A stretch of DNA of 64,000 nt from Scleromatobacter humisilvae (GTDB taxonomy: Bacteria > Pseudomonadota > Gammaproteobacteria > Burkholderiales > Burkholderiaceae_C), in assembly GCF_023231945.1 (NCBI RefSeq), contig NZ_JAJLJH010000001.1, positions 558,001-622,000 on the forward strand. The letters run 5' to 3'. The notes under the pieces are model-generated. The model worked only from the letters and a program-made list of their open reading frames with translations. It had not been told where the DNA came from and searched no databases. Shown here one piece after another: positions 798 through 11,978 of this stretch (positions within the stretch are counted from its first letter, which is position 1; every line of letters starts with the position of its first letter). A program made the translations under genes and the position numbers.

Positions 798-2813
798 TTA
801 GTGGGACGCCATCTGCAGCAGCGTGTCGAAGATGGCCTGCGCCACCTGCAGCACCTTGGCCGCGGCCTGGTAGCCCTGCTGGAACTGGATCAGGCGGCCG
901 GCTTCCTCGTCGAGGTTGACGCCGCTCTTGTCGGCGACCGCGTCGGCGGCCTGGTCGGACGTGGCCTGCGAGATCGTCGACGCCGTCTTCGCGCTCTGCA
1001 CGCGCACGCCCACGTTGGCGAGCACGCTCGCGTAGGCGTCGGTGGCGGTCTCGCCGTCCTGCAGCGAGCCGTCGATCTGCTTGTCGCGGCCGACGAAGGC
1101 CTCGTCGCGCAGGCCTACCATCGCGAGCGCGTTGCCGTTGTTGCTCTCGGGGTGCGCGGTCTTCGTGACGGTGAGCGTGTCGCCGTTGGCCGGCACGCCG
1201 TTGAGGCTCAGCTGGTAGCCGTTCAGCGCGATCGGCTGGCCCGGCGTCCAGGTGCCGGTGCCCGAGGACGTGACGGCGCCGCTGGCGTCGGTCAGCGTGT
1301 ACGAGTAGCCGCCGGCGGCATCGGTGAAGTTGATCGAGGTGGTCAGCGTCGGGTCGCTGCTGGGGTCGACGACCGTCAGGCCGGACACGGTCGCGGTGCC
1401 CTTGTTGGCCACGCCCATCACGGCCGTCTGCGGCGCGGCGGCGGCGAGTCCGGCGGGATCGTCCAGCACGCGCTGCATGCTCACCGCGGCGCGGCCGACG
1501 GGCTCGAGCTCGAAGCTGTCGTTGGCCGCCGGGGTGCCGCTGAACGTGATCTGGAAGCCGTCCATGCTGCTGCCCATCGCGGCGCCGTCGGACTGCCGCG
1601 TGAACCCGAAGCCGCCGGCGCCGTCGGGCGCCATCGAGAACTTCACGCCGTCGGACTGGCGCGTGACGACGAAGTTGCCGGGCGTCGCGGGATCGGCCGC
1701 GAGCGTGTAGTCGCTGGCCTTGAGCTGCGAGCCGTCGGTCACCGTCATCGAGACGCTGGCCGCGAAGCCGCCGGAGGCGTCGCGCGCGTTGTGCACGTTG
1801 GGGATCGCGATCGGGCCGCCGACGGCGAAGACCGGGTTGCCGGAGCCCGCGGGCGAGCTCATGTCGATGCCCGCGGCCTGCACCTGGTTGACGCGCGCCG
1901 ACACCGCCGCCGCCATCTGCCCCAGCTGGTTGCGCGCCGCGACGAGGTCCTCGTTCTGGTACTTCATCAGCCCGCTGATCGAGCCGCCCACGAGCAGGTC
2001 GGTGGACAGCTCGTGCGTGATGCCGCTGTCGCTGATCGAGATCGTCGAACGCCCCGTGTTGGCCGGATCGGGCGTCACGGCGAGCTGCTGCGCCTCGGCG
2101 CCCAGCACGAGGCGCTGGCCGCCGGCGATGAACACGCCCATCGTGCCGTCGTCGGCCTGCACCGTGGACACCTTGACCAGGTTGCCGATCTGCTTGACCA
2201 GCTGGTCGCGCTGGTCGAGCAGGTCGTTCGGCGCCGACGACGTGCCGCGCAGGGCCGCGATGTCGCCATTGAGCTTGGCGACCTGCGCCGCCATCTGGTT
2301 GACCTGCGCGACAGAGTTCTTCAGGTCGGACGTGACGCCGTTCTGGAGCCGATCCAGCTGGCCGCCGGCGGTGGCGAAGCGGTCGGCCACCTCGGCGGCG
2401 TCGGACAGGATCACCTGGCGCGCCGACGAGTCGGCCGGGCTGTTGGCGAGATCGACGAACGCGTTCATGAAGTTGCCGACCGAGGCGCCCATGCCGTTGT
2501 CGCCCGGCGGGAACACGGTCTCGAGCTGCTGCAGGTTGGCCGAGCGCGTGCTGTCCATCGCGGCCATCGAGCTGGCGACCTGCGATTGCGTGGTCAGGAA
2601 CGCGTCGCTCGCGCGCTGCACGGTGACGACGTCGACACCCTTGCCGAAGAAGCCGGCGCCGGTCTGCTGGCCGCCGGAGGTCTGCAGCTCCACGGTCTGG
2701 CGCGAGTAACCCGGCGTCTGCGCGTTGGCGATGTTGTGGCCGGTCGTCTGCATCGACGCGTAGTTCGCGAACATCGCGCGCGTGCCGATCGACATCAATG
2801 CCGACGAGCTCAT
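798..2813 (-). CDS. flgK: Flagellar hook-associated protein 1 FlgK
   Basis: FlgK forms the first hook-filament junction ring after export through the flagellar secretion gate. The product is 671 residues, in the upper part of the family range. The axial-protein N-terminal motif (NIANAQTPGYSRQ, about residues 28 to 40) is present, and the C-terminus has the conserved GVNLDEEAGRLIQFQQGYQA segment that packs as a D0 helix. A strong ribosome site (AAAGGAG) lies 6 nt before the ATG. It is preceded by flgJ with a 70-nt gap and followed by flgL. The variable middle (about residues 300 to 560) holds the surface domains. Nothing in it looks broken. Confidence 0.97.
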   Translation of the reverse strand: MSSSALMSIGTRAMFANYASMQTTGHNIANAQTPGYSRQTVELQTSGGQQTGAGFFGKGVDVVTVQRASDAFLTTQSQVASSMAAMDSTRSANLQQLETVFPPGDNGMGASVGNFMNAFVDLANSPADSSARQVILSDAAEVADRFATAGGQLDRLQNGVTSDLKNSVAQVNQMAAQVAKLNGDIAALRGTSSAPNDLLDQRDQLVKQIGNLVKVSTVQADDGTMGVFIAGGQRLVLGAEAQQLAVTPDPANTGRSTISISDSGITHELSTDLLVGGSISGLMKYQNEDLVAARNQLGQMAAAVSARVNQVQAAGIDMSSPAGSGNPVFAVGGPIAIPNVHNARDASGGFAASVSMTVTDGSQLKASDYTLAADPATPGNFVVTRQSDGVKFSMAPDGAGGFGFTRQSDGAAMGSSMDGFQITFSGTPAANDSFELEPVGRAAVSMQRVLDDPAGLAAAAPQTAVMGVANKGTATVSGLTVVDPSSDPTLTTSINFTDAAGGYSYTLTDASGAVTSSGTGTWTPGQPIALNGYQLSLNGVPANGDTLTVTKTAHPESNNGNALAMVGLRDEAFVGRDKQIDGSLQDGETATDAYASVLANVGVRVQSAKTASTISQATSDQAADAVADKSGVNLDEEAGRLIQFQQGYQAAAKVLQVAQAIFDTLLQMASH

Positions 2814-2883: not shown

Positions 2884-3771
2884 TCAGGCGAGCGTCTGCT
2901 GGACGCGCTCGGTCATGTGGATCATCTTGGCCAGCTTCTGCGCGTACGACGGATCGGTCGCGTAGCCGGCCTTCTGCAGGCCCTTGGCGAAGCCGTTGGC
3001 GTCGGCGCCCGAGGCCACCACCGCGGCGTAGCGCGGGCTGTTCTTCATCGTCGACGCGTAGTCGGCGAAGGACTCGGCGAAGCTCGAATAGGCGCGGAAG
3101 GTCTGCGTGACCTTGCGGGCATGGCCGCCGATGTACTCGGTGGTCGTGATGTCGGTGGTCGCGCCCTTCCAGTTCGGGCCGGCCTTCATCCCGAACAGGT
3201 TGTACGAGTTGGAACCGTCGGCGTTCTTGATCTCCTTGCGGCCCCAGCCCGTCTCGTGCGCGGCCTGCGCGATCATGAATTTCGCCGGGATGCCCGTTTC
3301 CTTCTCGGCGGCGGCGGCGGCATCGGTATGCGCCGTGATGAAGGCCGCGGCGGCCTTCTGCGGCAGCGCGACCGGCGCGTCGGCGTGCAGCGGATCGACC
3401 GGCATCGGGTTGGCCGTCGCGGGCTTGGCGGTGACGCCCTGCGCGATGCCCATCTGGCGCTCGAGCTGGCGCGCGATGACGTCCGACAGCCCGCCCGGCA
3501 GGCCCGACATCTTCGAGGCCCACTGCGAGTCGAGCATCTCGGTGCCCATCTTCGTGCCCTCGTTCTCCATCATGTCGGAGTTCATGGTGGAGTCGCGCAT
3601 CTGCTTGAGCAGCTGCTGCGTGAACATCTGCTCGAACTGCTTGGCCGCCTCGCGGACGGCGCTCTTCGGATCCTTGTCCGCCTTGATGCGCAGGTTCTCG
3701 AGGCCGCCGGCGAGGTTCAGCGACTGCGTCGGCGCGCCCGCGATCGACGAGGAGATGGGCGTGCTGGCCAT
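2884..3771 (-). CDS. flgJ: Flagellar rod assembly protein and peptidoglycan hydrolase FlgJ
   Basis: FlgJ caps the growing rod and opens the peptidoglycan layer for it in the periplasm. The 295-residue product has the N-terminal rod-cap region (AAKQFEQMFTQQLLKQMRDS, about residues 40 to 59). A C-terminal glucosaminidase domain follows from about residue 150, with the catalytic glutamate in AAHETGWGRKEI and the NLFGMKAG segment. It is therefore the two-domain type seen in beta- and gamma-proteobacteria. I chose the ATG at 3771 because upstream residues in the same frame are the shadow of flgI. The gap to flgI is 2 nt, so translation is probably coupled. Confidence 0.96.
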   Translation of the reverse strand: MASTPISSSIAGAPTQSLNLAGGLENLRIKADKDPKSAVREAAKQFEQMFTQQLLKQMRDSTMNSDMMENEGTKMGTEMLDSQWASKMSGLPGGLSDVIARQLERQMGIAQGVTAKPATANPMPVDPLHADAPVALPQKAAAAFITAHTDAAAAAEKETGIPAKFMIAQAAHETGWGRKEIKNADGSNSYNLFGMKAGPNWKGATTDITTTEYIGGHARKVTQTFRAYSSFAESFADYASTMKNSPRYAAVVASGADANGFAKGLQKAGYATDPSYAQKLAKMIHMTERVQQTLA

Positions 3772-3773
3772 GC

Positions 3774-4961
3774 TCAGATCACCTCGATCTCGGCGGTCAG
3801 CGCGCCGGAGGACTTCATCGCCTGCAGGATCGCGAGCAGGTCCTGCGGCGTGGCGCCGAGCGCGTTGAGCGCCTTGACGACGTCCGCCAGCTTGGTGCCC
3901 GCGGGCATGTTGACCAGCGAGCCGGGCTGCGACGAGATCGCGATGTCGGTCTTGTCGGTCACCACCGTCTGGCCACCGGAGTTCGGCGCGGGCTGGCTCA
4001 CCTGCGGGTTGGAGTTGATCGTCACCGACAGGCTGCCGTGGGCCACCGCGCACGGCGCGAGCGTGACCGCCTGGTTCATCACGATGGAGCCGGTTCGCGC
4101 GTTCATCACGATCTTGGCGGCCGGCGCGGCGAGGCTGATGTCGAGGTTCTCGAGGTCGGCCAGGAAGCTGACGCGGGCGTCGGAATCGGTCGGTGCCCGC
4201 ACCTTGATGACGCGGCCGTCGAGCGCGCGCGCGATGCCGGCGCCCTTGTTGGCGTTGATCGCGTTGGCGACCGCGCGGGCGGTGGCGTAGTCGGCCGAGT
4301 TGAGGTCCAGCTCCAGCGAGTCGCCCTGCGACAGCGGCGTGGGCACCGCGCGTTCGACCGACGCCCCTTCGGGGATGCGGCCGGCGCTGAGGTGGTTGAT
4401 CGTGACCTTGGAGCCGCCCGCCGCGGCGCCGGCGCCGCCGACGATCAGGTTGCCCTGCGCGATCGCGTAGACCTGGCCGTCGGCGCCCTTGAGCGGCGTG
4501 GCCACGAGCGTGCCGCCGCGCAGGCTCTTGGCGTTGGCGACGGACGAGACGTCGACGTCGATGTTCTGGCCCGGCTGCGCGAACGCCGGCAGCGAGGCGG
4601 TGACGATCACCGCGGCGACGTTCTTCAGCTGCATCGACGTGCCCGCGGGCAGCGTCACGCCCAGCTGCTGCAGCATCGACTGCAGGCCCTGCGTGGTGAA
4701 CGGCGCCTGCGTGGTCTGGTCGCCCGTGCCGTCCAGGCCGATCACCAGGCCGTAGCCCACCAGTTGGTTGGACCGCACGCCTTGCACGGCGGCGACTTCC
4801 TTGATGCGCGTGGCGTTCGCCGACGTCGTGAACAGCGCCGTGACGATGACGACGATGATCGCGAAGATGCCCACGCGCAGCGCCGTGCGGTCGGAGACCA
4901 CGTGGCGCGGATGCACGCCGCGATGGCGCAGGTGGCGATGGTTGGCGGACGAGTCGAACAT
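3774..4961 (-). CDS. flgI: Flagellar P-ring protein FlgI
   Basis: FlgI makes the periplasmic P ring around the distal rod. The 395-residue product carries the family signature TRIKEVAAVQGVRSNQLVGYG directly after a Sec signal whose hydrophobic core is VGIFAIIVVIVTALF, cleaved near ANA. The signal has an unusually long, His/Arg-rich lead (about 28 residues) if translation starts at the ATG at 4961. A GTG at 4901 would shorten it by 20 residues. The ATG overlaps the flgG stop as TGATG. No flgH lies between flgG and flgI, although the L ring normally partners this ring. The rest of the protein looks intact. Confidence 0.96.
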   Translation of the reverse strand: MFDSSANHRHLRHRGVHPRHVVSDRTALRVGIFAIIVVIVTALFTTSANATRIKEVAAVQGVRSNQLVGYGLVIGLDGTGDQTTQAPFTTQGLQSMLQQLGVTLPAGTSMQLKNVAAVIVTASLPAFAQPGQNIDVDVSSVANAKSLRGGTLVATPLKGADGQVYAIAQGNLIVGGAGAAAGGSKVTINHLSAGRIPEGASVERAVPTPLSQGDSLELDLNSADYATARAVANAINANKGAGIARALDGRVIKVRAPTDSDARVSFLADLENLDISLAAPAAKIVMNARTGSIVMNQAVTLAPCAVAHGSLSVTINSNPQVSQPAPNSGGQTVVTDKTDIAISSQPGSLVNMPAGTKLADVVKALNALGATPQDLLAILQAMKSSGALTAEIEVI

Positions 4962-5743
4962 CACAGCTGGCCCAGGCGTTGCAGCATCTGGTCGGAGGTC
5001 TGGATCGCCTTCGAGTTGAGCTCGTAGGCGCGCTGCGTCGAGATCATCGCGACGAGCTCCTCGACGACGTTGACGTTGCTGGTCTCGACGAAGCCCTGCT
5101 GCAGGCGGCCCAGGCCGTTGGTGCCCGGCGCGGCGGCGCTCGGCGAGCCGGACGCGGCCGTCTCGGCGTAGATGTTGCCGCCCTTGGGATCGAGGCCGCC
5201 CGGGTTGGCGAAGTTGGCGAGCTGCAGCTGGCCCACGGTGCTGGGCGTGGCGGTGCCGGGCACCGTGACGCTGACGGTGCCGTCGGCGCCGATCGAGATG
5301 CTCTGCGCGTTCGGCGGGATCGTGATGCCGGGCTGCACGACGTAGCCCTCGTTGTTGACGACCTGGCCCTGCGCGTCGAGCTTGAGCGAGCCGTCGCGCG
5401 TGTAGCCGGTGGTGCCGTCGGGCATCGTCACCTGCAGGAAGCCGTTGCCGCTGATCGCCACGTCCAGCGTGTTGCCCGTCTGCTGCAGCGAGCCCTGCGT
5501 GAAGTCGCGCGCGGTGGCCACCGGACGCACGCCCAGGCCGACCTGCAGGCCGCTGGGCAGCTGCGTCTGGTCGGACGTCGCCGAGCCGGACTGGCGCAGG
5601 TTCTGGTAGATCAGGTCCTCGAACTGCGCATGGCTCTTCTTGTAGCCGTTGGTGGCCACGTTGGCGAGGTTGTGCGAGATGTTGTCCAGCTGGAGCTGCT
5701 GAGCCTCCATGCCGGTCTTCGAGATCCACAGTGAGCGAAGCAT
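4961..5743 (-). CDS. flgG: Flagellar distal rod protein FlgG
   Basis: FlgG polymerises into the distal rod that crosses the periplasm. The 260-residue length is standard. The N-terminus [20 protein letters not shown] with [12 protein letters not shown], and the C-terminus [21 protein letters not shown], are the two halves of the rod/hook D0 coiled region. Its stop codon overlaps the flgI start, giving tight coupling. Upstream, about 370 bp containing a paired-inverted repeat array separates it from flgF, a spacing far wider than elsewhere in the operon. It may therefore need its own promoter or read-through across the array; no promoter is obvious to me. Confidence 0.97.
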
Positions 5744-5860: not shown

Positions 5861-6067
5861 GGGGTCAGGTCTTGCCTTTTGCCTTTTGGAGGGGGTCAGG
5901 TCTTGCCTTTTGCCTGTTTCGCCGGGTGCAACGGCATCGCATCGAATCCTGCTTACCCATGCCGCGGCCGCTGAATCTCGAATTCGACAGGTGGTTTCGC
6001 TCGTGCGAAAGCAGGCAAAAGGCAAGACCTGACCCCGCCGCCCGGGCAAAAGGCAAGACCTGACCCC
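5861..6067. repeat. Paired-inverted array of a 23-nt repeat (array 1, between flgF and flgG)
   Basis: A 23-nt unit beginning GGGGTCAGGTCTTGCC and ending TTTTGCC occurs at 5861-5883 and 5892-5914 on the plus strand. It recurs in the opposite orientation at 6014-6036 and 6045-6067. All four copies look identical. Direct copies are 8 nt apart on each side, and about 99 bp of unrelated sequence sits in the middle. The transcript could fold into a long stem. The same arrangement recurs at 11749-11978. I recall 'AAGACCTGACCCC'-type repeats near REP-associated tyrosine transposases, but that link is memory only and no transposase gene is present here. Confidence 0.85.
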
Positions 6068-6114
6068 GCCCTGGTCGACCCCGTCCGGGTCGGCCTGGCC
6101 AGCCATCAAAAGGA

Positions 6115-6840
6115 CTAGTTCTCGCTGAGCAGCTTCGACGCCTGCTGATCCTGCTTCTCGGCGTTCTCCAGCATCTTCATCTGGTGCTCGAACTGCCGCG
6201 CGGCCGCGATCATGCCGACCATCGTCGCCACCGGGCTCACGTTGGAGCCCTCGAGCGCGCCGGACTGCAGCTTGGCCTGCGGGTCGGCCGCGAGATCGCC
6301 GGAATCGGCGCGGAACAGGCCGTCGGTGCCGCGCGTCATGGGCACGTCGGGCGTGACCATCTTCAGCTTGCCGATCTGCTGCGGCTTCTGGTTGCCGACC
6401 TTGGCGGTGATCGTGCCGTCGTCGCCGATGTCGATGGACGCGTTCTGCGGCACCGTGATCGGGCCGCCGTCGCCGTTGACCTGCAGGCCGTCGCGCGTGA
6501 CGAGCACGCCCTCGGCGTTGACGTCCAGCGCTCCGGCGCGCGTGTAGGCCTCGGTGCCGTCCAGGCCCTGCACGGCGAGCCAGGACTTGCCGGTCATCGC
6601 CACGTCGAGGTTGCGCCCGGTCGCGTTGATCGCGCCCTGCTCGTCGTTGTAGCCCGGCGTCGTCTCCAGCGAGAACACGCGCGTGGACGCGCCGTCGCCT
6701 CGGATCGGCACCGCGCGGAACGCGGTGAGCTCGGCGCGGAAGCCGTTGGTCGAGACGTTGGCGAGGTTGTTGGCGAGCGAGTCCTGGCGCTGCAGGGCCG
6801 CCTTGGCGCCCGACATCGACAGGTAGATCATCCGATCCAT
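6115..6840 (-). CDS. flgF: Flagellar proximal rod protein FlgF
   Basis: FlgF is a proximal rod subunit in the periplasmic drive shaft. The 241-residue product has the rod N-terminus MDRMIYLSMSGAKAALQRQD with NNLANVSTNGFRAE, and the C-terminal D0 segment LEGSNVSPVATMVGMIAAAR. It follows flgE by 25 nt. Downstream lies a repeat array rather than the usual close junction with flgG. The mid-region TRAGALDVNAEGVLVTRDGL is the rod-protein D1 domain. Length and motifs are normal. Confidence 0.96.
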   Translation of the reverse strand: MDRMIYLSMSGAKAALQRQDSLANNLANVSTNGFRAELTAFRAVPIRGDGASTRVFSLETTPGYNDEQGAINATGRNLDVAMTGKSWLAVQGLDGTEAYTRAGALDVNAEGVLVTRDGLQVNGDGGPITVPQNASIDIGDDGTITAKVGNQKPQQIGKLKMVTPDVPMTRGTDGLFRADSGDLAADPQAKLQSGALEGSNVSPVATMVGMIAAARQFEHQMKMLENAEKQDQQASKLLSEN

Positions 6841-6865: not shown

Positions 6866-8134
6866 TCAGCGGAGGTTGACCAGGGTCTGCATCGCCTGGT
6901 CCATCGTCTTGATGGTCTGGGCGTTGGCCTGGTAGTCGCGCTGCGCAGTGATCATCGACACCAGCTCCGCGGTCAGGTCGACGTTGGATTCCTCCAGCGA
7001 GCCCGAATTCAGCACGCCGAGGTTGCCGTCGCCGGCGACGCCCACCGTCGGGCCGCCCGAGGCCGCCGTCTGCTTCCAGCCGTTGCCGCCCAGAGGCGTC
7101 AGGCCCTGCGGGTTGCGGAAGTTGGCCAGCTCGAGCTGGCCGGCGGCCTTGGTCTGGCCGTTCGAGTACTGGGCGATCAGCTTGCCGCTGTTGTCCACCG
7201 AGACGCCGGTGAGCTGGCCGGCGGTGTAGCCGTCCTGCGTCATGTTGGTGACGCCGAAGTTGGAGCCGAATTCGGTCGCGCCCGAGACGTCCAGCGCGAT
7301 GCCGCTGATGGGCAGCGTGGCGGCGCCTTCGGCGTTGGTCGACGCGGGGATGTCGATCGTGATCGGCCCGGTGGGCGAGATCAGCGAGCTGCCGTCCGAC
7401 GAGAACTGCAGCGACGCGACCGGCGACGGCGCGCCGGGCGCGCCGTTCACGGTGGTGCCGTTGGCGGTGGCGTAGACGTCGAAGGTGTCGGTGCCGGTCT
7501 TCTGGAAGTAGTAGCTGACCGCGACGTCCTGGCCCTTGGCGTCGAACATCGTCACCGAGGTGGCGTTGTTGTACGTCTTCTGGTTGGTGAAGTCGATCGT
7601 CGGACCCGAGGTGGGCGTCGTCACCGCGGCGCGGGCGTCGAGGTTGAACTCCATCGTGCTCTTGGTCGTCTGCTGCGGGTCGATGCCGCCGGTGGGCAGC
7701 TGCAGCGGCTGGGCCGCGCCCTGCACGATGGCACCCGACGCGTCGGCCGGATAGCCCAGCAGCTTGTTGCCCTGGTCGTTGACGATGTTGCCGGTGTTGC
7801 TGACCTTGAACTGGCCGTTGCGCGTGTACTGGATCTGGTTGGACGGATCCTGCGTCTGGAAGAAGCCGTTGCCGTTGATCGCGAGATCCAGCGGGTTGCC
7901 CGTGGGCGTGATGTTGCCCTGGTTGAACTGCTGCGACACCGTCGCCACCTGCACGCCGATGCCGGCCTGCGTGTTGTTGGCGGCCGAACCCGTCATCGCC
8001 GCGGCGTACATGTCGGCGAACTCGGCGCGCGACGACTTCTCGCCGTAGGTGTTGGAGTTGGCGACGTTGTTGCCGATCACTTCGAGGTTCTTCGAAGCGG
8101 CGCTCAAGCCGGACAGGCCTTGCTGGAATCCCAT
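6866..8134 (-). CDS. flgE: Flagellar hook protein FlgE
   Basis: FlgE builds the universal-joint hook outside the cell. The 422-residue product starts MGFQQGLSGLSAASKNLEVI with NNVANSNTYGEKSSRAEFADM, and ends LTAELVSMITAQRDYQANA, the two conserved D0 pieces. The centre is Thr/Ser/Gly-rich, as in hook D2 domains. A purine-rich site (CAGGAGACACC) precedes the ATG. It follows flgD, whose product caps hook growth, by 33 nt. Length is in the normal range of about 400 to 430. Confidence 0.97.
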   Translation of the reverse strand: MGFQQGLSGLSAASKNLEVIGNNVANSNTYGEKSSRAEFADMYAAAMTGSAANNTQAGIGVQVATVSQQFNQGNITPTGNPLDLAINGNGFFQTQDPSNQIQYTRNGQFKVSNTGNIVNDQGNKLLGYPADASGAIVQGAAQPLQLPTGGIDPQQTTKSTMEFNLDARAAVTTPTSGPTIDFTNQKTYNNATSVTMFDAKGQDVAVSYYFQKTGTDTFDVYATANGTTVNGAPGAPSPVASLQFSSDGSSLISPTGPITIDIPASTNAEGAATLPISGIALDVSGATEFGSNFGVTNMTQDGYTAGQLTGVSVDNSGKLIAQYSNGQTKAAGQLELANFRNPQGLTPLGGNGWKQTAASGGPTVGVAGDGNLGVLNSGSLEESNVDLTAELVSMITAQRDYQANAQTIKTMDQAMQTLVNLR

Positions 8135-8167: not shown

Positions 8168-8902
8168 TCAGTAGAAGGCGCGGACGTCGGCGTAGTCGAC
8201 GCGGCGGCCGTCGTCGAGCTCCACGGCGAGCTTGCCGTTGGTGCTGCTGACCGCATTGATGCTATTGAAGGCGAAGGACTTCGAATCGAGCTTGGCGTCG
8301 TTGTTCATCGCGCTGACGCGGAAGGTCAGCGCCTTGCCCTGCGCCGTGGCGGGCACGTCGAAGTCGAACGGGTGGCTGCCCGCCTCCTGCGGACCGAGCT
8401 TGACGGTGCCCACCGTCGCGCCGGCCGGGTCGAGGATGTCGACGTTGACGCTGGTGGCCGGGCTGTCGATCTGGAATCCGCCCTCGCCCTTGTGGGTGTC
8501 GGCGTCGACGCGCAGGCTGTTGCCGTCGGTGGCCACGTCGTGGCCGACGAGCGCGGCGCCCTGCATCGTCTGCAGCTGCGTGAACTGGCTGTCGAGGCCG
8601 CTGACCGTCTTGTTGAGCGTCTGCACGCCCTGCACGGTGGAGATCTGCGCCATCTGGCTGGTGACCTGCGCCGAGTCCATCGGGTTGAGCGGATCCTGGT
8701 TGGACATCTGCGCCACCAGCAGCTTCAGGAAGCGGTCGGACTGCTCCTGCGCCGACTGCGTCGCGCCGAGCTTGGACGCGTCCGCGCCCGCGGCGGCGGC
8801 CTTGGCCGCGCCCTTCGCGCCGGCGGCCGGCGTGGCCGCGGAGTTGCCGAACGCGCTGAGCGTGTTGAGCGCGGGATTGGTGTTGGCAGCCGAGATCGAC
8901 AT
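8168..8902 (-). CDS. flgD: Flagellar hook cap/scaffold protein FlgD
   Basis: FlgD sits on the tip of the growing hook and guides FlgE insertion, then leaves. The 244-residue product has the conserved N-terminal export and cap region DRFLKLLVAQMSNQDPLNPM (about residues 56 to 75), followed by QMAQISTVQGVQTLN. A C-terminal beta-rich region (about 110 to 220) contains the FlgD Ig-like domain. An Ala/Gly/Lys-rich linker precedes the conserved block. It lies 9 nt after flgC in the leftward operon. Confidence 0.96.
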   Translation of the reverse strand: MSISAANTNPALNTLSAFGNSAATPAAGAKGAAKAAAAGADASKLGATQSAQEQSDRFLKLLVAQMSNQDPLNPMDSAQVTSQMAQISTVQGVQTLNKTVSGLDSQFTQLQTMQGAALVGHDVATDGNSLRVDADTHKGEGGFQIDSPATSVNVDILDPAGATVGTVKLGPQEAGSHPFDFDVPATAQGKALTFRVSAMNNDAKLDSKSFAFNSINAVSSTNGKLAVELDDGRRVDYADVRAFY

Positions 8903-8911
8903 GGTGGTCCT

Positions 8912-9328
8912 TTAGCCCTGGCCCATCTGCAGCGTCTTCATCAGCAGCGTCTTGGCGGTGTTCATCACTTCGATGTTGTTCTGGTACGAGCGCGAGGCCG
9001 AGATCATGTTGACCATCTCGTCGACCGCGTTGACGTTGGAGTACGTGACGTAGCCGTCGGCGTCGGCGCTCGGGTTGGCCGGGTCGTGCACCTTGCGGCC
9101 GGGCGCCTGGTTCTCGGTGACGCCCGACACGCGCACGCCCTGCCCGGGCGCGCCGTCGCCGGTGTTCATCAGCACGGTCTGGAACGTGACCTCGCGCGCC
9201 TTGTAGGCCTTGCCGTCCGGGCCGGCGACGGTGTCGACGTTGGCCAGGTTGGACGCGACGGTGTTCAGGCGCTGGCTCTGCGACGAGACCGCGGACCCCG
9301 AAATGTCGAAGATCTTGAACATGCTCAT
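8912..9328 (-). CDS. flgC: Flagellar proximal rod protein FlgC
   Basis: FlgC is a proximal rod subunit. The product is 138 residues, the usual size. It contains SSQSQRLNTVASNLANVDTV near the N-terminus and the C-terminal D0 helix NVNAVDEMVNMISASRSYQN. The conserved lysine-rich loop YKAREVTFQTVL separates them. The gap to flgB is 11 nt. Assignment is by motif and by its operon place directly after flgB. Confidence 0.97.
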   Translation of the reverse strand: MSMFKIFDISGSAVSSQSQRLNTVASNLANVDTVAGPDGKAYKAREVTFQTVLMNTGDGAPGQGVRVSGVTENQAPGRKVHDPANPSADADGYVTYSNVNAVDEMVNMISASRSYQNNIEVMNTAKTLLMKTLQMGQG

Positions 9329-9339
9329 GGCTCAGCTCC

Positions 9340-9765
9340 TTACCCTTGGCTCGGGCTCTTCATCGCGTCCAGCATCGTGCGGACGTCGGTGTTGATGAAG
9401 CGCAGCGTGGCCTCGTACTTCACCGAGTTCTCGACGAAGCTGGCTCGTTCGCGGTCCATGTCGACGGTGTTGCTGTCGAGGCTGGTCTGCGAGGGCGCGG
9501 CGTATTTCAGGCCCAGTTCGGCGGTCGAGCCGGTGCCGATCGGGATCTGGCCGGACGAGGTGCCCATCTGGCCCATGCCAGTCATCGTCGAGCCGGCGGC
9601 CTGCGTGCCGGTGGCCTCGCGCAGCGCGGCGGCGAAGTCCATGTCGCGGGCGACGTAGCCCGGGGTGTCGGCGTTGGCGATGTTGCCCGCGATGATGCGC
9701 TGACGCTCCGCCCGCAGCGTGAGCGCCTGGGCCTGGAAGTCGAGCGAGTTGGTCATGCGGTTCAT
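9340..9765 (-). CDS. flgB: Flagellar proximal rod protein FlgB
   Basis: FlgB begins the proximal rod and heads the leftward hook-basal-body operon. Starting at the ATG at 9765 gives 141 residues; AAGGTGA lies 4 nt before it, which is why I prefer this start over in-frame codons further up. Motifs are LTLRAERQRIIAGNIANADT and PGYVARDMDFAAAL near the N-terminus, with the C-terminal helix SFVENSVKYEATLRFIN. The divergent neighbour is flgA, with about 200 bp between the two starts holding control sequences for both. Confidence 0.96.
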   Translation of the reverse strand: MNRMTNSLDFQAQALTLRAERQRIIAGNIANADTPGYVARDMDFAAALREATGTQAAGSTMTGMGQMGTSSGQIPIGTGSTAELGLKYAAPSQTSLDSNTVDMDRERASFVENSVKYEATLRFINTDVRTMLDAMKSPSQG

Positions 9766-9857
9766 CGGGTCACCTTCGGTGTTCCTGCAGTCGGCCGTCC
9801 GGGGTTGGAGATGGGAAATCCGGACGGATCGACGGCCATGGAGAGCGATTGTGGAAG

Positions 9858-9884
9858 TCAAGACCGGAAACTGAAGGCCGATAA
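9858..9884 (+). promoter_or_regulatory. Candidate sigma-28 (FliA) promoter upstream of flgA
   Basis: TCAAGACC at 9858-9865 and GCCGATAA at 9877-9884 are separated by 11 nt. The -10 element is a full match to the FliA consensus GCCGATAA, while the -35 matches only in part (TAAAGTTT). It points rightward towards flgA, about 88 nt before the GTG chosen as its start. The same 200-bp gap must also hold the leftward flgB promoter, which I cannot locate with confidence. Confidence 0.55.
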
Positions 9885-9971
9885 AGCAGGGGAACGGCCC
9901 TCAATTCGAACCACCGGCGCGTGTCGGGTTCTCTAAAGTGGCCACATCCCCAAATCCCCAGGCTCCGTCCC

Positions 9972-10721
9972 GTGAACGCTTTCCCCGCCACCGCCGCCCT
10001 CGCCGCCCGCCGCCTCGCCGCGCTGGCCGTGCTCGCGGCCGCCGGTGCGCCCGCGTTGGCCCAGGACGAGCCCGGCTACACCCCGGACAACACGCTGCTG
10101 CAACAGGTGGAGACGATGGCGCGCAACGGCGCGTCGGCGGCCACCGCCCAGCAGGGCCAGGGCCTGCGCGTGGAGGTCAAGGTCGGCAAGCTCGACCCGC
10201 GCCTGAAGCTCGCGCCCTGCCAGCACATCGACACCTACCTGCCGCCCGGCCTGCCCGTCTGGGGCGCGACGCGCATCGGGATGCGCTGCACGCAGGGCGC
10301 CAAGCTGTGGAACGTGTCGATCCCGATCCAGGTCAGCGTCTACGCGCAGGCCACCGTCTTGAAGGCCGCGCTGCCCGCCGGCACGGTGCTCGACGCCAGC
10401 CAGCTCGCGCAGGCCGAGGTCGATATCGCCGCCGCCCCCGGCGCCGCCGTGCCCGATCCGCTGCTCGTCGTGGGCCGCACGCTGGGCCGCGGCGTCGCTG
10501 CCGGCGCCACGCTGCGCCAGACCGACCTCAAGGCCCGCCAGTTCTTCGCGGCGGGCGAGACGGTGCGCGTCACCGCGATCGGCAAGGGCTGGTCGGTCGA
10601 GACCGAGGGCCAGGCCATCGGCCCCGGCATCGAGGGGCAGAACGTGAACGTCCGCACGGAAGCGGGGCGCCTGTTGAGCGCCCGGCCGACCGGGCAGGGG
10701 CAAGTCGAGGTGACACTTTGA
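9972..10721 (+). CDS. flgA: Flagellar P-ring assembly chaperone FlgA
   Basis: FlgA is a periplasmic chaperone for P-ring (FlgI) assembly. From the GTG at 9972 the product is 249 residues, with a clean Sec signal (AALAARRLAALAVLAAAGAP, cleavage near ALAQ). An alternative GTG at 9921 in the same frame would add 17 residues in front and bury the signal. The C-terminal SAF-type domain (about residues 110 to 249) has AGTVLDASQLAQAEVD, VVGRTLGRGVAAGATLRQTD and ARQFFAAGETV. It is divergent from flgB and followed by flgM with its own promoter. Confidence 0.93.
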   Translation: MNAFPATAALAARRLAALAVLAAAGAPALAQDEPGYTPDNTLLQQVETMARNGASAATAQQGQGLRVEVKVGKLDPRLKLAPCQHIDTYLPPGLPVWGATRIGMRCTQGAKLWNVSIPIQVSVYAQATVLKAALPAGTVLDASQLAQAEVDIAAAPGAAVPDPLLVVGRTLGRGVAAGATLRQTDLKARQFFAAGETVRVTAIGKGWSVETEGQAIGPGIEGQNVNVRTEAGRLLSARPTGQGQVEVTL

Positions 10722-11666: not shown

Positions 11667-11752
11667 AGGCGCCGGGGGCAAAGCGCCGGGGCCATAAAGC
11701 GCCCGGAAGCGCCGGGGTCAGGTCTAAAGCGCCGGGGTCAGAAGCGCCGGGG
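11667..11752. repeat. Degenerate tandem array of an AGCGCCGGGG-type unit
   Basis: Six copies of a short unit close to AGCGCCGGGG start at about 11668, 11682, 11698, 11708, 11728 and 11743, spaced 10 to 20 bp. Several run on into GGGGTCAG or GGGGTCAGGTCT, the first part of the 23-nt repeat, as if the larger repeat had been copied repeatedly and truncated. No coding capacity is apparent. Confidence 0.65.
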
Positions 11753-11978
11753 TCAGGTCTTGCCTTTTGCCCGAGCTTTGGGGTCAGGTCTTGCCTTTTG
11801 CCTGTCTCCCCCCGGGACGAGCTTGGCTTTTGACGCAGGCGACCAACTCCAGAGCAACACGAGCGTCGGGAGTTTCGTGCCACTCAACTGCACGCGCCCC
11901 TCGTATTGGCGCGTTCCTTTGGGGGCAAAAGGCAAGACCTGACCCCAGCCATTTGGGCAAAAGGCAAGACCTGACCCC
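11749..11978. repeat. Paired-inverted array of the 23-nt repeat (array 2, after flgN)
   Basis: The same 23-nt unit as in array 1 occurs at 11749-11771 and 11780-11802 on the plus strand, and inverted at 11924-11946 and 11956-11978. The central 121 bp differ from the centre of array 1, so the conserved part is the four repeat copies and their geometry. The array occupies most of the 348 bp between the two copies of the flgN tail/terminator. Confidence 0.85.

Follow-up and report, generated by a model that had tools for sequence, protein, structure and literature searches.

Species of the genus Scleromatobacter have lost the canonical gene for FlgH, the protein of the flagellar L-ring, from the flgG-flgH-flgI series, and a paralogue that we term FlgH2 probably forms the L-ring instead (at a rough probability of 0.7). 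Gram-negative flagella ordinarily include an L-ring protein. FlgH2 is a clade label coined in this analysis, and FlgH1 denotes the canonical, operonic protein. At the level of sequence, the missing gene is explained by loss of the orthologue and survival of the paralogue. The analysis concerns a stretch of 64,000 nucleotides (the window) from the source genome, Scleromatobacter humisilvae (G000, 28 contigs), together with three congeners, all metagenome bins (G139, G150 and G151), and a sample of 150 genomes from the family.

The rod-hook genes of the window lie on the minus strand in the order flgB-C-D-E-F-G-I-J-K-L, where flgB, flgC, flgD and flgL were named by order and sequence only (Table 1). 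The initial annotation had described this operon as complete but for flgH, and the gene order agrees; in E. coli K-12, flgH stands between flgG and flgI. The stop codon of flgG (TGA, 4963-4961) overlaps the flgI start codon, which runs from 4961, so that the resulting TGATG leaves no room for flgH, and bases 4959-4963 confirm what had been noted of this junction. Judged by eye, the signal peptide comes about 20 codons after the ATG of flgI, and translation might begin at a GTG further along, but this later start would still leave no space for flgH. A six-frame search of the whole genome with PF02107 gives no match in the window, in line with the earlier statement that no FlgH-like sequence is present there.

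Table 1. Rod-hook operon of the window and the solitary flgH2 gene of the source genome (positions are those of the window unless a contig is given).
Feature	Position	Strand	Remarks
flgK	798..2813	-	PF22638
flgJ, rod cap with glucosaminidase domain	2884..3771	-	PF10135, PF01832
flgI, P-ring protein	3774..4961	-	PF02119, E 4.3e-137; sole copy found in genome
flgG-flgI junction TGATG, flgH missing here	4959..4963	-	identical in 4/4 genus genomes
flgG, distal rod protein	4961..5743	-	PF06429, PF22692; stop TGA overlaps flgI ATG
flgF	6115..6840	-	Pfam match
flgE, hook	6866..8134	-	PF07559
flgD	8168..8902	-	named by order and sequence
flgC	8912..9328	-	named by order and sequence
flgB, open frame	9340..9861	-	named by order and sequence; true start probably further in
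flgA, P-ring chaperone	9921..10721	+	PF13144
flgH2	G000:C2 about 316,774-317,493 (L002:8775-9494)	+	PF02107 match; directly after lipoprotein gene

The gap between flgF and flgG also holds one of two clusters of a repeat with the core GGCAAGACCTGACCC, of which there are four copies, two per direction, at each of window positions 5861-6068 and 11749-11978. In G139 and G151 the sequence of this gap differs from that of G000, although about 65 bases before flgG appear alike in all three by eye.

The TGATG junction is common to G000, G139, G150 and G151, with in-frame differences just behind it. A comparison of the junction with close relatives had been called for in the initial annotation, which also raised a collapsed assembly at 4961 as a possible cause; three of three congeners have the same junction, and its identity in four genomes rules out a local assembly fault. 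All four genus genomes are drafts, in 28 to about 630 contigs, and an artefact of assembly or binning that collapsed flgH is conceivable in such material, but the agreement of four assemblies, with in-frame divergence around the junction, and the completeness of 100 percent given for G000 make it extremely improbable. In each of the four genomes the primary flgI follows directly on flgG without flgH, and a solitary flgH is present. G000 and G151 have one FlgH and one FlgI each, and G139 and G150 possess a second flagellar system as well, in which a further flgH and flgI stand next to each other.

The 150 family genomes yield 144 FlgH matches (in 112 genomes, fragments counted) and 130 FlgI copies (in 113 genomes, the FlgI fragments of G003 and G104 being left out). 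FlgH is missing within 2.6 kb of FlgI for 7 of the 130 copies, two of which belong to this genus (G000 and G139). At two further loci flgH is kept with the flgE-F-G genes and flgI is located elsewhere (G072, G135), at another flgH lies about 5 kb from flgI with other genes between (G030), and in G009 and G138 the absence of flgH near flgI looks like loss at contig ends. The loci of G072, G135 and G030 (L049, L050 and L051) are other ways in which genera separate flgH from flgI.

Searched in six frames with PF02107, the 28 contigs of the source genome contain a single FlgH, at G000:C2:316936-317472. Its product has about 237 residues and the lipobox LGGC. It scores 139.3 bits against PF02107 (curated cut-off 27) and falls below every NCBIfam FlgH equivalog cut-off listed, the best being 140.3 of 280 bits, and was therefore filed as a paralogue of the FlgH family and not as an equivalog. 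A profile of 17 FlgH2 proteins matches the FlgH of solved L-rings (7bgl, 7clr) at E 4.6e-49. The FlgH tree comprises 70 rows, namely 24 FlgH2, 27 operonic FlgH (E. coli included), 14 from second systems and 5 ungrouped, with row G096_2nd left out. In it FlgH2 forms one clade, with support 100/100 and a stem of 1.33, apart from both the operonic and the second-system proteins. The four genus copies fall inside this clade, nearest the FlgH2 of G039 and of G144 (taken as Roseateles koreensis), both of which retain an FlgH adjoining FlgI. A derivation of FlgH2 from the sampled second-system (lateral-type) FlgH was considered and rejected, those rows lying outside the clade. The lipobox cysteine (C26) is invariant in 54 rows. 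Of the best 80 of 128 confirmed FlgH2 loci, all have a C-terminal Trp, 71 show a simple lipobox motif and 73 a KGPG-type insert; GPG was seen in just 1 of the 42 other FlgH.

The whole-genome search proposed earlier thus yields one intact flgH, on contig C2, where no flagellar operon surrounds it. The initial annotation had listed the gene as being elsewhere, replaced or lost, and had regarded an intact copy elsewhere as a simple relocation. The list was right, and the outcome is loss with apparent replacement, in spite of the intact gene on another contig; the equation with relocation fails, because that gene sits in the FlgH2 clade and 12 genomes of other genera in the family sample carry FlgH2 together with an operonic FlgH. 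If the operon's own flgH had simply moved, a single intact copy elsewhere would be expected, as is found, and flgH has been separated from flgI in G072, G135 and G030. The separated genes of these three genomes, however, group with operonic FlgH in the tree, whereas the solitary gene lies in the FlgH2 clade, with FlgH2 hallmarks and the FlgH2 partner lipoprotein. We consider relocation very unlikely.

FlgH2 is present in 15 copies in 14 of the 150 family genomes. Twelve of these have an FlgH beside every FlgI, and the other two are G000 and G139, the sole adjacent FlgH-FlgI pair of the latter being that of its second system. All 14 are FlgI-positive, as against 113 of the whole 150 (hypergeometric P 0.015, without correction for kinship). 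The best 80 of the 128 loci extend to Roseateles, Rhodoferax, Rubrivivax, Aquabacterium, Curvibacter, Rhizobacter, Sphaerotilus, Uliginosibacterium, Methylotenera and others. From these loci, 50 FlgH2 genomes of genera other than Scleromatobacter were checked genome-wide for FlgI and FlgH: FlgI was found in 49, once as a fragment, and was missing only from L076, a draft bin of Curvibacter; each of the 50 has two or more FlgH matches. Since every FlgH2 genome checked from another genus has a further FlgH, dependence on FlgH2 for the primary flagellum appears to be limited to this genus among the genomes examined. Searches of the open-licence literature listed nothing that describes FlgH2, an orphan or second FlgH, or the lipoprotein partner.

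Several Mitsuaria, Roseateles, Curvibacter and Rubrivivax genomes apparently have two flgH2 loci each (L100/L116, L104/L127, L110/L117, L071/L121, L113/L130). In Candidatus Dactylopiibacterium carminicum (L090) the flgH beside flgI looks broken, in two pieces with one stop (G547:C68:1835-2363), and this genome also has flgH2 and a second-system flgH; this may be a parallel case or an error of the draft.

The flgH2 gene is paired with an uncharacterised lipoprotein gene in 78 of the best 80 loci (of 128 confirmed), and in the family sample the two occur in the same 14 genomes in equal copy numbers. The G000 lipoprotein has no Pfam match. The predicted fold, from a model of a congener's copy (pLDDT 86, pTM 0.74), is nearest to PelC, and chain 0 of 8z5n is also among its fold matches. 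In a sample of 369 genomes of the class, which seems poor in this family, the lipoprotein was found in 6, strongly only in its own genome.

Several features of the neighbourhood may be recorded here. In a Xylophilus bin the lipoprotein gene has an in-frame stop (L115, G016:C65). The gene before it on contig C2 (L002:7404-8201) encodes a Ser/Ala-rich protein with no evident signal peptide and no family match above cut-off in Pfam or NCBIfam. Judged by eye, the start of this protein is like that of flagellar export substrates. An upstream ORF of comparable composition is seen in 51 of the 78 loci with the lipoprotein, by thresholds set ad hoc, and many of these share a motif like FGPVAASAIG..FSxESL. 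A FliA-like sigma factor, additional to that of the window, is encoded about 8 kb from flgH2 (L002:17292-18257), and related frames stand in the G139 and G150 regions. No sigma-28-like core was detected upstream of flgH2 (L002:6901-8800) with a simple pattern that misses 7 of 10 flagellar upstream regions, including those of fliC1 and flgM.

In Salmonella, according to PMC8298488, Ile30 and Phe31 of FlgH are the hydrophobic pair that enters the outer pocket of FlgI. By motif search, all 80 FlgH2 have an aliphatic-aromatic pair here. The Leu-Phe-like pair of the inner pocket is found in 59 of 80 by a loose motif, and in strict columns fits only with a shift of one residue: positions 44/45 of FlgH2 are Phe (49/55) and mostly Ser/Thr, instead of Leu/Phe. 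Position 45 is Phe in 25 of 27 operonic FlgH, but none of the 14 second-system FlgH has Phe there. Lys114 of the inner face is present in 22 of 27 operonic FlgH and in only 11 of 55 FlgH2; the G000 protein keeps it. The charged belts that the L-ring has in Salmonella are, Lys114 excepted, for the most part unconserved even in the operonic FlgH of the family, and so could not decide the role of FlgH2. The FlgI of the genus retains the pocket residues that accept FlgH in the Salmonella structure (PMC8298488), to the extent that they are conserved in the family, and has no surplus of unusual residues. Lys63 and Lys95 are present in the FlgI of the window. No signal of co-adaptation was seen in FlgI (4 of 137 conserved columns deviate, within the 0-29 of single control rows) or in FlgG of three genus genomes (2 of 109, control rows 0-8). 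The AF2 monomer model of FlgH2 is poor (pLDDT 65). Purifying selection on FlgH2 is evident from pairwise dN/dS within the genus, on rough estimates of 0.24-0.40 for FlgH2 and 0.11-0.19 for FlgI. As regards the rest of the flagellum, FliC, D, E, F, G, I, M, N, P and R match their families (C1:642-682 kb), and Pfam confirms FlgE, FlgF, FlgG, FlgI, FlgJ, FlgK, FlgA, FlhA, FlhB and a FliA-like sigma factor in the window.

In favour of FlgH2 as the L-ring protein we count its being the only FlgH in G000 and G151, the profile match to 7bgl and 7clr, the outer-pocket pair, the inner-pocket pair by loose motif, the retained FlgI pockets, the presence of the flagellar proteins scanned, purifying selection and co-occurrence with FlgI. 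Against it stand the second FlgH match in 50 of 50 FlgH2 genomes of other genera, so that FlgH2 may ordinarily have a task other than the L-ring of the main flagellum, and also the inner-pocket residues in strict columns, Lys114, the lack, in a weak test, of a sigma-28-like core, the equivalog shortfall, the KGPG insert, the site apart from flagellar operons and, on rough values, a dN/dS above that of FlgI.

A rival reading is that the genus has no L-ring at all. FlgH2 would then serve outside the flagellum, for example by building a ring in the outer membrane together with the PelC-like lipoprotein, and the flagellum itself would be defective, would stay in the periplasm or would pass through the outer membrane with no L-ring. 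FlgH2 normally accompanies another FlgH, lies beside the lipoprotein gene and in G000 is away from flagellar operons, and in Salmonella the additional deletion of flhE allows filaments to form in the absence of the P and L rings (PMC11247099), so that a flagellum free of the L-ring is not impossible. Yet FlgH2 is restricted to flagellated genomes in the family sample, and nearly so in other genera (49/50), the flagellar proteins scanned look intact, with FlgI and FlgG free of signs of decay, and Salmonella without FlgH halts at the candlestick (P-ring) stage, according to PMC8298488. On balance we regard the absence of an L-ring as unlikely.

We therefore prefer the replacement of FlgH1 by FlgH2. 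On this reading the canonical flgH was cleanly removed from between flgG and flgI in an ancestor of the genus, and FlgH2 is the only FlgH of the source genome. FlgH2 would form the L-ring by polymerising around the FlgG rod, on the FlgI P-ring, and the flagellum would be built with a non-orthologous L-ring protein. The PelC-like lipoprotein might assist FlgH2 or make a ring together with it. A wider and more tentative proposal, which we hold to be somewhat less probable than not, is that in Burkholderiales and related groups FlgH2 and the lipoprotein constitute a second, apparently undescribed outer-membrane ring module of flagella, with another form of L-ring that a ring of the lipoprotein strengthens or encircles. 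The normal L-ring would be kept too in most species that have the module, and this genus would depend on the module alone for its main flagellum. A natural swap to a distant paralogue, if true, would offer a direct test of which features of FlgH are required for ring building. The FlgH2-lipoprotein pair, which many flagellated Burkholderiales carry, suggests an additional ring in the outer membrane, testable in harmless cultured species.

Compared with known FlgH (PF02107; 7clr, 7bgl, 8z5n), FlgH2 shares the family match, the lipobox and the residue pair for the outer pocket of FlgI. It differs in its long stem, the KGPG insert, a WLQRVLT..LSxW tail, its place outside the flg operon and scores below the equivalog cut-offs. 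PelC forms the outer-membrane lipoprotein ring of Pel export (5t0z, 5t10, 9h80). The partner lipoprotein differs from it, since its profile has no sequence match to PelC chains at E up to 1, its neighbour is flgH2, and no pel genes were noticed beside the G000 gene when the list of neighbouring ORFs was read by eye. The proposed module resembles the LPHT ring of 8z5n, in which Vibrio-type H and T rings surround the LP ring, in the notion that the L-ring is accompanied by a further ring component.
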